In this document: piece after piece, positions 591 to 5,878 of the stretch
How positions within the stretch are numbered: the first letter of the stretch is position 1
Layout: each line of letters opens with the position of its first letter
Origin: Candidatus Shapirobacteria bacterium
GTDB lineage: Bacteria; Patescibacteriota; Microgenomatia; UBA12405
Assembly: GCA_016188545.1 (NCBI GenBank)
Contig: JACPHO010000004.1
Span: forward strand, 1-41,585
DNA length: 41,585 nucleotides
Reading direction: 5' to 3'
Translations under genes and position numbers: made by a program
Notes under the pieces: model-generated
The model's input: the letters and a program-made list of their open reading frames with translations, nothing else
Told to the model about the DNA's origin: nothing
Databases searched by the model: none

Positions 591-839
591 TTACTTCGAT
601 AACAATAAGTTATGCTTAATAAGGAAAGATCTTCCTGATGAGGTTTTTAGGTATTGTTCGAATTCAAATGCTGTGTGTTTGTTTTGAAATGCGAAATATG
701 CCAAAAGGTTTATGGGTCGTCTGTGTGAGGTTGCCTTTACATATCCATTTTGATGGCGGCGGAATCTTTCTTTCAAATCATTTGTGCGGCCAAGATAGGT
801 TTTATTGTCACTACACTTAAGAAAATACACATAGTACAC
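591..839 (-). CDS. GIY-YIG nuclease-superfamily protein (YhbQ/UPF0213 type)
   Basis: 82 residues, the normal size for a stand-alone GIY-YIG domain. It opens MYYVYFLKC, the variant GIY strand, followed by KTYLGRTNDLKERFRRH, containing the YIG-equivalent YLG and the conserved Arg. A Glu near residue 59 (FEFEQYLK) matches the metal-binding Glu, and the family's KTSSGR.FL ending is present. The family is implicated in DNA repair or nucleic-acid cleavage, but this member's substrate is unknown. It is convergent with the SNase remnant (9-bp gap). A -10-like TATAAA lies about 13 nt before the ATG. Confidence 0.92.
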   Translation of the reverse strand: MYYVYFLKCSDNKTYLGRTNDLKERFRRHQNGYVKATSHRRPINLLAYFAFQNKHTAFEFEQYLKTSSGRSFLIKHNLLLSK

Positions 840-966: not shown

Positions 967-1038
967 TGGACCATGGGAGACTTGAACTCCCCTCTTCGCA
1001 ATGCGAATGCGATGCTCTACCAGATAAGCTAATGGCCC
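967..1038 (-). tRNA. tRNA-Ala (anticodon CGC)
   Basis: On the minus strand a 72-nt cloverleaf folds fully. The 7-bp acceptor is GGGCCAT/ATGGTCC with the diagnostic G3:U70 wobble of alanine tRNAs. The D arm is GCTT/GAGC, the anticodon arm TCGCA/TGCGA with loop TTCGCAT (anticodon CGC), and the T arm GGGAG/CTCCC with loop TTCAAGT. The discriminator is A. The 3' CCA is not encoded (CTT follows). It lies 6 bp past the stop of pth, on the same strand, and the tandem repeat begins directly at its 3' end. Confidence 0.95.
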
Positions 1039-1619: not shown

Positions 1620-3623
1620 TTAATTGATTAGACTGCTAAATTCAGCCTCGTTAATAATTTTTGTCTCGAATTTTTTGGCATTAATAAATTTGCTGGAGCT
1701 GGATTCAGTTTCGTTTGTAATTAAATAATTAGTATTTTTGGAGACATTGCTGTGAACCTGACCACCTTGGGAAATTATGATATCTTCCAATTCTTTGCGA
1801 GGACGACTGAGGGTACCGGTGATACAAAAGGATAGGCCGAAAAATGCCAAATTTTTAATTTCTAATTTCAAATTAACATTTGAAAGAATTGATTCGATCC
1901 AAGAACGGCGTAGATTGATACCGGCAATAATTTTTTCAGCTAGAGTTTGCTGGAAGCCTTTGATGGATAAAAGATCATCGACAGTTAATGAGAGTAACTT
2001 TTGTGGAGTGTCGAAACCGGCATTAATGAGTTGGAGAATTCGTTTTTGGGAAAAGTTGGGTATGATGGACGCGTCAAACACTTCGACGATACTTAAGATT
2101 CTTTTTTTATCAATCTGATGAATGATGTTTTTAGCTGATTTTTCCCCTAAGTTATCCAAGTCTTTGATATTGGACACAGTTAGTTTATAAAAATCACCAG
2201 GGAGCCTAATTCGATTGACTTGGTAGAGCTTGGTGATGGTTTTTTCTGATAATCCAAGAATTTCCAGGGTGTCGCAGAATAGCCTGAGACTGCCGATAAT
2301 TTGAGGTAAACAATTTTGAGTATTGGGACATTTGAGAAACTTTTCTTCTTTGACTAATAGTGTGTGACAGGAGGGGCAGGTTTTGGGAAAATCTAGGTGT
2401 CCAGAATTAACCTTAGTAACTACTTTTTCAATGTGAGGAATTACATCTCCGCGTCGGCTGATTTGGACAACGTCACCGATATTTAACCCCATTTTTTGAA
2501 TAAGATCGTAGTTGGCCAGGGAGGCAAAAGTAACAATGGCACCAGAAAGTTCAATTGGTTCTACCTCTGCTACCGGAGTAATGGTGCCCATGGGGCCGAC
2601 TTGCCAGACTACTTCTTTGACTGTTGTCTGATTGTCCGAGGCGGGAAACTTGTAGGCGACTTGGAATTTGGGGCGGTTGTTGAGTGAACCTAAACTATTG
2701 GCGATATTTAGGTCGTTGATTTTGATAACCAAGCCGTCAATCTCATAAGGATAGCTAAGACGATCTTCGTCTAGAAATTTTTGATAAATTGATTCGATCT
2801 CTTCAAACTGGGTGCAAAGATGTGACTCTACTGTGGTAAATCCTAGGGACTGAAGTAGATCAATTTTTTCCTGCTCGGTGTTTACCGAAGCCATGATATC
2901 AACGGCATAGAGGGAACAATATTCGGAATACTTTGAATCAAGGCGTTGAGAAAGACCAGAGGCGGCATTGCGGGGGTTGGAATAAAACTCTCCGCTTTCA
3001 ATCTCCCCCTCCGACTGTTGTCGGAGACCCCTCTTTGACAAGAAGGGTAAGGTACTTTTTTGGACTTTCTGGTTTAATTTGCCAAAATCAGCTTTAGTAA
3101 CAACTATCTCACAACGGACGGAGCCACTAAAGCCTTTGGGGTTAGCGACAAAGTTTTTCATTTTGACGACATTTTGGGTGATAATATCGCCGATTTTACC
3201 GTCGCCTCGGGTAATGGCATCGATTAGTTGACCATTTTTGTATTCTATTTCCAGAGAGATGCCATCACATTTGGGTTGGACAACGTAAGATATGCTATGC
3301 ATATCAACGTTGCTGCCTGCGGCGCTTTTTTTTAATTCGAAATAGTGAATTAAGTTGGCAAAAGTATTGACCTTGTTTTGAGAAGACATGGGGTGGGTGT
3401 GATTCTTTTTAGACCAGCCGGTATCAAAATTTTCGTGACCGACTTTGCTAAAAATTCGGTGGTGGGGAGATTTTTGACGGAGAATTTCTTCAAGAGTGTC
3501 GTAGGTGTGGTCGTCCATTATTGGCTTACCACTAGTGTAGTAGGCTTTTTTGGCGGTGATGAGAAGCTCGCCGAGGGATTCGGGAGATTTATTTTCGATA
3601 TCAAGTGATTCTAAAGTCAACAT
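1620..3623 (-). CDS. ligA: NAD+-dependent DNA ligase LigA
   Basis: Seals nicks using NAD+ in replication and repair. Order of parts: Ia domain (MDDHTYDTLE), adenylation domain with KCDG nucleophile motif (Lys about 118 from this start), NPRNAASG, OB-fold, Cys4 zinc finger (CPSC ... CPNTQNC), helix-hairpin-helix repeats and a C-terminal BRCT domain (FCITGTL ... NTNYLIT). The start at 3623 (667 aa) is preferred to an in-frame ATG at 3662 because a TATAAT lies 6 nt before it, as at other genes here, and the extra 13 residues are not family-like. Two oddities: about 18 extra residues before NPRNAASG are encoded by a dispersed repeat (2996-3052), and the linker before BRCT is encoded by an AT-rich iterated repeat (1850-1882). 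Confidence 0.98.
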   Translation of the reverse strand: MLTLESLDIENKSPESLGELLITAKKAYYTSGKPIMDDHTYDTLEEILRQKSPHHRIFSKVGHENFDTGWSKKNHTHPMSSQNKVNTFANLIHYFELKKSAAGSNVDMHSISYVVQPKCDGISLEIEYKNGQLIDAITRGDGKIGDIITQNVVKMKNFVANPKGFSGSVRCEIVVTKADFGKLNQKVQKSTLPFLSKRGLRQQSEGEIESGEFYSNPRNAASGLSQRLDSKYSEYCSLYAVDIMASVNTEQEKIDLLQSLGFTTVESHLCTQFEEIESIYQKFLDEDRLSYPYEIDGLVIKINDLNIANSLGSLNNRPKFQVAYKFPASDNQTTVKEVVWQVGPMGTITPVAEVEPIELSGAIVTFASLANYDLIQKMGLNIGDVVQISRRGDVIPHIEKVVTKVNSGHLDFPKTCPSCHTLLVKEEKFLKCPNTQNCLPQIIGSLRLFCDTLEILGLSEKTITKLYQVNRIRLPGDFYKLTVSNIKDLDNLGEKSAKNIIHQIDKKRILSIVEVFDASIIPNFSQKRILQLINAGFDTPQKLLSLTVDDLLSIKGFQQTLAEKIIAGINLRRSWIESILSNVNLKLEIKNLAFFGLSFCITGTLSRPRKELEDIIISQGGQVHSNVSKNTNYLITNETESSSSKFINAKKFETKIINEAEFSSLIN
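1850..1882. repeat. AT-rich iterated micro-repeat inside ligA
   Basis: A run of reiterated AATTT/CTAATTT/CAAATT words lies within ligA at the junction of the last helix-hairpin-helix and the BRCT domain, and is translated there as a Lys/Leu/Glu/Ile-rich linker. The same word family occurs between genes at 5810-5878, 24888-24925 and 36320-36348, and inside pheS. Confidence 0.6.
2996..3052. repeat. Dispersed TTTGACAAG repeat, expanded copy inside ligA
   Basis: It starts CTTTCAATC, goes on through a C-rich block, a perfect 7-bp hairpin (CTCCGAC-TGTT-GTCGGAG, 3009-3026) and CCCCTCTTTGACAAG, and ends AAGGGTAA. It matches, block by block, the inverted repeats at 3671-3708 and 4099-4140 around the DUF559 gene, with the hairpin as an extra insert. 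On the minus strand it encodes LPFLSKRG...SEGEIE within LigA and keeps the frame. Confidence 0.8.
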
Positions 3624-3629
3624 CGAGTA

Positions 3630-3635
3630 ATTATA
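3630..3635 (-). promoter_or_regulatory. -10 element of ligA
   Basis: TATAAT on the minus strand lies 6 nt before the ATG at 3623. This spacing puts the transcription start at or next to the start codon, and it decides the start against the upstream ATG at 3662. Confidence 0.55.
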
Positions 3636-3670
3636 TCTCAACCCACCCCCTGTATTTTCCATTAACTATA

Positions 3671-4140
3671 TTTTCAATCCCCCTCAGTCCCCCTTTGACA
3701 AGGGGGAAGTAAAGGCAGAATATGTGTAGTGGGAAATATTGTTGATGATGCCATTCATAGTGAGCGAGGTGTGATTAGGTATTGGTCAGAGCTTAGAGAT
3801 GTTGCAAGGGTGAACAGGAAAAACCCGACTAAAGCTGAAGAAAAGTTGTGGATTGAGATACTAAAGAATAAGCAAACTGGTTATTTATTTTTAAGACAGA
3901 AGCCGATTTATAGATTTATTGCTGACTTTTATTGTTCTGAATTGAGTTTAATTATTGAAGTGGATGGTGATTCTCATGACAATAAAAAAGGAACAGATAA
4001 ATTGAGAGATCAGTGGTTGGAATGTATTGGTATAAAGACAATTAGATTTACTAATAAAGAGGTATTGGAAAACATAGAATTAGTTATAGAAAAGTTGATT
4101 CCCCTCCTTGTCAAAGGAGGGGTTAGGGGTGGATTGAAAA
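3671..4140. mobile_element. DUF559 nuclease gene framed by about 40-bp inverted repeats
   Basis: Left arm 3671-3708 and right arm 4099-4140 are inverted copies. Both start from the outside with TTTTCAATCC (10/10 identical), then a C-rich block, then TTTGACAAGG (10/10) and a G-run ending GGGGAA. Each arm also holds its own hairpin: TCCCCCTT-TGAC-AAGGGGGA on the left and CCCCTCCTT-GTCA-AAGGAGGGG on the right. The enclosed segment is essentially the DUF559 coding sequence, which reads through the right arm and stops 20 nt beyond it. No target-site duplication is obvious. That it moves is inference; that the arms are related is seen directly. Confidence 0.6.
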
Positions 4141-4160
4141 GTAGGATGGGTCAAGTATAA
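3729..4160 (+). CDS. DUF559 (Vsr/PD-(D/E)xK-like) endonuclease-domain protein
   Basis: 143 residues from a GTG start. The core begins [12 protein letters not shown], then [16 protein letters not shown] and [10 protein letters not shown], and ends [12 protein letters not shown]. This is the DUF559 fold, related to very-short-patch-repair endonucleases, with the acidic pair in IADFYC and the E-x-D of IIEVDG as likely metal ligands. The C-terminal tail [13 protein letters not shown] is encoded by the right inverted repeat, so the gene and the repeat are physically fused. The first about 25 residues are not family-like and a later start is possible. The product's target is unknown; a role in moving the flanking repeat is a hypothesis only. 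Confidence 0.85.
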
Positions 4161-5682: not shown

Positions 5683-5690
5683 CTTAGGTC

Positions 5691-5699
5691 ATTATAACA
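5691..5699 (-). promoter_or_regulatory. Extended -10 of the Fic gene
   Basis: TGTTATAAT on the minus strand, 8 nt before the ATG at 5682. The TGn extension plus a consensus hexamer makes a strong -35-independent promoter; the mRNA would be leaderless. Confidence 0.65.
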
Positions 5700-5737
5700 C
5701 TTTTTATAAATTTCAATGAGGGGAAAATGCGGGGAAT

Positions 5738-5878
5738 ACGATAAACGTAAAACGTAATACGATAAACGAGAAATAATAAGAGAGAAACGAAATGTGTAAT
5801 TGGTAATTTGTAACTAGTAACTAGAATAAAACAAAATAAATAGTAATTAGAAATTAGTAACTGGTAACTAGAATAAAA
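5738..5878. repeat. AT-rich iterated filler between the Fic gene and holB
   Basis: No gene is visible. The sequence is built of decayed short reiterations: (A)ACGTAATACGATAAACG words near 5740-5770, then GTAACTAGAATAAAAC occurring near 5815 and again near 5867, with AATTAGAAATTAGTAA in between. Similar filler occurs at several other gaps in this window. Confidence 0.6.

Follow-up and report, generated by a model that had tools for sequence, protein, structure and literature searches.

Bacterial genomes commonly contain short hairpin repeats, of which the RAYT transposases are, to our knowledge, the only established partners. In Rickettsia, palindromic elements lie in frame within protein genes, as do the repeats described here, and we know of no cognate nuclease gene for the Rickettsia elements. 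RAYT-REPIN systems (PMC3116915, PMC2817692, PMC8266576) comprise short hairpin repeats with a tail, occurring singly or in inverted pairs and found within genes too, together with a single-gene enzyme, a Y1 (HUH) transposase, which lies between inverted copies and whose lineage matches the repeat subtype. CGTC-tagged REPs, which are small palindromic repeats, also intragenic and present in several phyla, have been reported without a dedicated transposase (PMC3733652). Two proteins of related fold or the same domain family complete the background: I-Bth0305I (PDB 3r3p, EDxHD/Vsr-type), the product of a mobile gene and a homing endonuclease by the title of its entry, and the Caulobacter DUF559 protein VsrA, which the relevant report (PMC12907096) interprets as a Vsr-like mismatch-repair endonuclease, apparently with no mention of repeats flanking its gene.

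Here, a locus is described in which each of the listed features of RAYT-REPIN systems recurs, but with a DUF559 PD-(D/E)XK/Vsr-like nuclease as the enzyme. The GTAG tetranucleotide that stands beside the RAYT-REP hairpin is absent from the arms read in the window and its relatives and, in contrast to classical REPs with their high copy numbers, the repeats found in the genome under study amount to about half a dozen (a lower bound, as are all of the genome-wide repeat counts). Since both the enzyme fold and the missing GTAG tag set it apart, the DUF559-repeat system is RAYT-REPIN-like and not a member of that group. Similarly, the repeats share size, palindromic form, intragenic placement and a range of several phyla with the CGTC-tagged REPs, but the CGTC tag by the stem is absent from the window's copies, and a gene is associated here. 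The system differs from I-Bth0305I in that the gene here is bracketed by hairpin inverted repeats, which also spread without it. A literature search, the coverage of which lay outside bioRxiv and most subscription journals, returned no description of an association between DUF559 genes and repeats, and a mobile unit composed of the two appears to be previously undescribed.

The window, meaning the whole stretch of 41,585 nucleotides that was analysed, is contig 1 of a 981-kb Candidatus Shapirobacteria genome assembled in eight contigs (G000). A reading of the sequence alone had proposed that a DUF559 gene is bracketed there by inverted hairpin-plus-tail repeats, and both arms are indeed present (Table 1), forming with the gene a compact unit of about 0.5 kb. 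The left arm, read on the plus strand from position 3671, is TTTTCAATCCCCCTCAGTCCCCCTTTGACAAGGGGG, and the right arm, read downwards from 4140 on the minus strand, is TTTTCAATCCACCCCTAACCCCTCCTTTGACAAGGAGGGG; in each the TTTTCAATC tail is outermost and the hairpin faces the gene, with the arms oppositely oriented. That each arm is a hairpin in its own right was confirmed by single-arm folding (z of -2.2 for the left arm and -3.2 for the right). The right arm is nuclease coding sequence, as had been stated, since the open reading frame reads through it to its C-terminal end. The further statement that the arms share their outer and inner sequences in inverted orientation holds for orientation and layout, but the arms are not identical, with complementarity of 81% across 27 nt and 77% across the outer 22 nt. 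Likewise, the quoted repeat motif occurs in both arms but is confined, in its exact form, to these two within the genome, the family being broader. With up to two mismatches, the core occurs at three sites in the window against 0.01 expected from shuffled sequences. The nuclease-less third copy in ligA was found to have a tail and core of the same kind but to read TTTGACAAGAAGG and not TTTGACAAGG. An Rfam scan of the window returned tRNAs only.

Table 1. Coordinates of the nuclease unit and associated features in the window.
Feature	Position	Strand	Description
ligA	1620..3662	-	Host of the solo repeat; loop carries repeats of different subtypes in relatives
Solo repeat without nuclease	2996..3048	+	In frame in ligA; long form with an additional internal hairpin
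Left arm	3671..3707	+	Outer tail TTTTCAATCCCCCTCAGTC, then hairpin with stems 3688-3695 and 3700-3707
DUF559 nuclease gene (PF04480)	3729..4160	+	GTG start, 143 aa; E 1.9e-28; Vsr/EDxHD-type fold
Right arm	4101..4140	-	Hairpin 4101-4109 and 4114-4122, then outer tail; within the nuclease reading frame
fic/holB spacer	5683..5878		Slot without a DUF559 unit here; unit present in at least five relatives (G012, G015, G018, G019, G022)

The open reading frame between the arms scores 98.9 bits, above the curated DUF559 cut-off of 20.6, and is the sole DUF559 gene detected in the genome. The nearest relatives of its product in the named collection are from Candidatus Shapirobacteria; a phage collection contained two distant matches, and PADLOC returned only weak domain matches. 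An AlphaFold2 model of the protein has a confident core (pLDDT 85) and is matched best by gonococcal NGO0050 (3hrl; Z 14.7, rmsd 1.6, 93 aligned), then by the homing endonuclease I-Bth0305I (Z 12.6, rmsd 2.3, 94 aligned), and also by Vsr (1vsr; Z 9.5, rmsd 2.1, 93 aligned). As modelled, the fold, taken with the conserved acidic and histidine residues, is that of a PD-(D/E)XK/Vsr-EDxHD nuclease. The protein is likely to be an active enzyme, to judge from its residues, since E37, E77, H83 and D90 are invariant among 46 sequences and D66 and D79 are nearly so.

The association of DUF559 genes with inverted repeats was then compared with that of other genes in a family sample of 34 genomes, many of them incomplete and fragmented assemblies, of which 28 have DUF559 genes (53 matches in total). 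The 300 nt upstream of each gene were compared with the 300 nt downstream, an inverted similarity score of at least 36 (a threshold of our own setting) being counted as positive; 41 DUF559 genes were scored, 40 of them well placed and one near a contig end, and 439 other open reading frames from the same stretches served as controls. Inverted-repeat flanks were found at 24 of the 40 DUF559 genes and at three of the 439 neighbouring frames, the three control matches being A+T-rich and of low complexity. Small stand-alone nuclease genes of the GIY-YIG type in the same genomes were positive in one of 28 cases, again with an A+T-rich match, so that DUF559 genes are flanked far more often than control genes, as the sequence-only reading had suggested should be checked. 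The 16 DUF559 genes that fell below the threshold count against the mobile-unit reading, although most of them do have a hairpin on one side or both. Overall, a perfect G+C-bearing hairpin lies on one or both sides of 36 of the 41 DUF559 genes and 63 of the 439 controls. Hairpins of this kind might simply terminate transcription or stabilise mRNA at the ends of genes, given that they are G+C-rich and lie near such ends. However, few controls (5/439, against 15/41 DUF559 genes) have such a perfect hairpin both upstream and downstream, and the arms share tails and sequence subtype and recur within ligA, within valS and at syntenic sites of presence or absence, which leaves this explanation with hardly any credit.

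GIY-YIG genes were themselves considered as a parallel nuclease-repeat system after the fic/holB spacer of G009 was seen to hold a GIY-YIG-like gene with GTCATCCTGAG/CGGAATGACA-type repeats in opposite orientation. This is a single case, and the idea was dropped in view of the 1/28 result, the genes serving instead as a negative control. Several family GIY-YIG genes (L290, L301, L305, L306) are flanked instead by strong direct repeats. The window's own GIY-YIG gene (591-839, minus strand) adjoins three tandem 39-nt units (CAACCCGTCTTCGCTTCGCTACGACGAGGTAAATGTAAA) at about 856-966, ahead of a tRNA gene (967-1038, minus strand).

If gene and repeat belong together, related nucleases might be expected to carry related repeats. 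The repeat is shared in all 12 pairs of units whose proteins are at least 70% identical, in 20 of 34 pairs at 60-70% and in 41 of 407 pairs below 50%, while paralogues of less than 60% identity within one genome mostly have different repeats (2/21 share one). The rank correlation between repeat similarity and protein identity is 0.21, and remains 0.175 when only pairs from different genera are considered and hot-spot locus pairs are omitted; none of 2000 permutations gave a value as high in either case. Repeat type tracks nuclease relatedness in the sequences compared, as cognate pairs would be expected to show. With a rho of about 0.2 the co-variation is modest, which counts against the mobile-unit reading, and part of it could derive from shared vertical history, an effect that the different-genus subset lessens but does not fully remove.

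The work on Caulobacter VsrA (PMC12907096) makes a passenger role for the nuclease the main rival: something else would spread the repeats, and a Vsr-like repair nuclease would have been captured between two copies. The mismatch-repair role proposed for that DUF559 protein, the Vsr-like fold of the domain and the excess of solo repeats over gene-bearing units are all in keeping with such capture. Against this, other small genes, GIY-YIG nucleases included, have not been captured in the same way, the repeat subtype fits the nuclease lineage across genera, and in other phyla the same layout appears, built on different repeat sequences. A passenger role is accordingly regarded as unlikely, but as the alternative deserving most weight.

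Movement of the unit was examined at orthologous sites. The pth-ligA-fic-holB-pilB block is conserved across the family, and the comparison of empty with filled sites that the sequence-only reading had called for revealed presence/absence variation at the syntenic ligA/fic and fic/holB slots. The ligA/fic slot holds a DUF559 unit in the window's genome, G009 and G025; G002 has a unit adjoining fic, near a contig end; and in most of the other genomes read neither slot is filled, the fic/holB spacer often being only 60-80 nt long. A type-B repeat in G012 is interrupted at its hairpin apex, and a type-A unit comes next. Whole units have also been duplicated within genomes: two copies in G235, set in unrelated flanks, share 99.5% identity across 557 nt that include the arms, and several copies in G291 share about 88-95% across roughly 0.8 kb, although linked duplicates may have arisen via recombination. 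On these comparisons, past mobility of the unit is supported by sequence. The ends of the unit are inverted, as in a classical IS element; the few junctions read showed no target-site duplication, and no fixed target was established at the sites examined, both of which count against the mobile-unit reading.

The missing target-site duplication would suit homing, in which a free-standing DUF559 enzyme cuts allelic or ectopic targets, the arms are parts of the target carried along, and solo and paired repeats are remnants. The second-best structural match, to I-Bth0305I, points the same way, as does the repeated occupation of the same slots and loops, which cutting of the empty site would explain. 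However, simple homing would not be expected to leave solo repeats, neat inverted pairs whose tails point outward, or duplicated units at sites with unrelated flanks, and homing is judged quite improbable as the explanation.

Repeats occur away from nuclease genes as well. When 909 kb of family stretches were searched with the arms, 62 solo copies and 12 pairs were found away from nuclease genes (some stretches and loci overlap), whereas reversed arms gave five solo copies and no pairs on the same sequence. Five of the 12 pairs are inverted, and gene-less inverted pairs in G008, G020 and G018/G012, situated at the ligA/fic and fic/holB slots, are the counterparts of the inverted pairs of REPINs. 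Solo repeats of type A are present in three of the five genomes read as carrying a type-A nuclease and in five of the 29 others, a difference that is suggestive only. In the window's genome, a looser search for the core TCTCCCTTTGACAAGGGAG located at least three further copies (C4:45045, C8:371941, C8:83661).

Some of these copies lie in frame within host genes. The ligA solo copy encodes, on the minus strand, the segment around LPFLSKRGLRQQSEGEI, and folds, additional internal hairpin included, with a z of -3.1; the copy at C8:83661 lies in frame within a valS-like gene for a class I aminoacyl-tRNA synthetase, and encodes KKSPLSKGDLEGL. The ligA loop ahead of FYSNPRN contains repeats of several subtypes in G000/G024, G008, G016, G019 and G021 and a distinct GTCATTGCGAG repeat in G014, while G001, G002, G009, G012 and G020 have just a short loop. 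Across genomes, several mutually unrelated hairpin repeats have entered the same position in a surface loop of LigA. In Bacteroidia, entire nuclease units lie in frame in leuS, metH, recJ and acs, between domains of the host protein; leuS is occupied at more than one site and metH at two or more. At one leuS loop, three of 27 parsed loci, as well as the query locus, have an insert of 153-203 residues, and the other 24 have 5-19 residues; the filled loops contain DUF559.

Units were also sought in two other classes, sampled via a Bacteroidales and a Megasphaera locus, in which 81 of 149 and 52 of 150 genomes have DUF559. Inverted flanks were found in 29 of 52 units against 3.3% of mismatched pairings, the loci being the best-scoring and not a random set, and the null being mismatched pairing and not neighbouring genes. 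In some of these genomes (L180, L183, L193, L197, L227) the arms seem flipped, with the hairpin outermost and the tail inward. Further units were found on plasmids of Deinococcus psychrotolerans, between paaD and paaZ and with 70-nt arms, and of Pseudanabaena sp. ABRG5-3, with inverted arms. The gonococcal and Picosynechococcus DUF559 genes have strong direct repeats, not inverted ones. Matched arms are absent from ycjD, the DUF559 gene of E. coli, which stands outside the mobile-unit picture and counts against it. Most of the ycjD query is present in 3365 of 5426 E. coli genomes, but the gene was rejected as a clean case of presence and absence: an MFS transporter gene follows sapF in the three ycjD-less strains read and, because it occupies the place of ycjD, the locus is not a simple empty site.

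Taken at the level of sequence comparison, the association, the co-variation, the presence/absence variation, the duplication of units within genomes and the in-frame insertions are supported; that the nuclease acts on the repeats, and the DNA structure cut and the copying route, are what we infer from them. Most likely, the DUF559 nuclease would recognise its own type of repeat as a hairpin or by the tail and would then nick or cut there, and the repeat, the pair or the gene-bearing unit would be copied to a new site in replication or break repair. Movement of the repeat by the nuclease is favoured because the unit has no other gene, and because neither the window's genome nor many others with units yielded a Y1 transposase. 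A Y1/RAYT or other transposase could instead move the repeats in trans, as the REPIN-like layout and the Y1_Tnp matches in 15 of the 34 family genomes might suggest. Against this, G000, G011, G012, G017, G018, G019, G021, G025, G027, G030, G031 and G033 all have DUF559 and gave no Y1_Tnp match, albeit from incomplete assemblies, and action in trans seems very improbable. The parallel with RAYT-REP families drawn by the sequence-only reading, with DUF559 in place of Y1, is upheld by flanks, presence/absence, type matching, inverted pairs and unit duplication, but strained by the low copy number and by ycjD. The DUF559 gene and its repeats probably constitute a mobile unit of RAYT-REPIN-like character built on a nuclease of Vsr/EDxHD fold, and there is a real chance that the system is a separate class of repeat plus cognate enzyme.

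More tentatively, DUF559 nucleases may prove to be a second, independent class of repeat-mobilising enzymes, present in several phyla, that spread lineage-specific repeats by active-site-dependent cutting of the hairpin, with repeat or unit able to insert in frame in essential genes without destroying them. If so, part of the hairpin repeats that have so far been without a dedicated enzyme would have one, and a candidate agent would be at hand for repeats such as the CGTC-type REPs. A function would also be offered for many DUF559 proteins, which form a common yet poorly explained family. Many apparent DUF559 fusions to leuS, metH and other genes would be predicted to be mobile insertions as opposed to functional fusions, with consequences for annotation and for the understanding of how essential proteins tolerate inserts.
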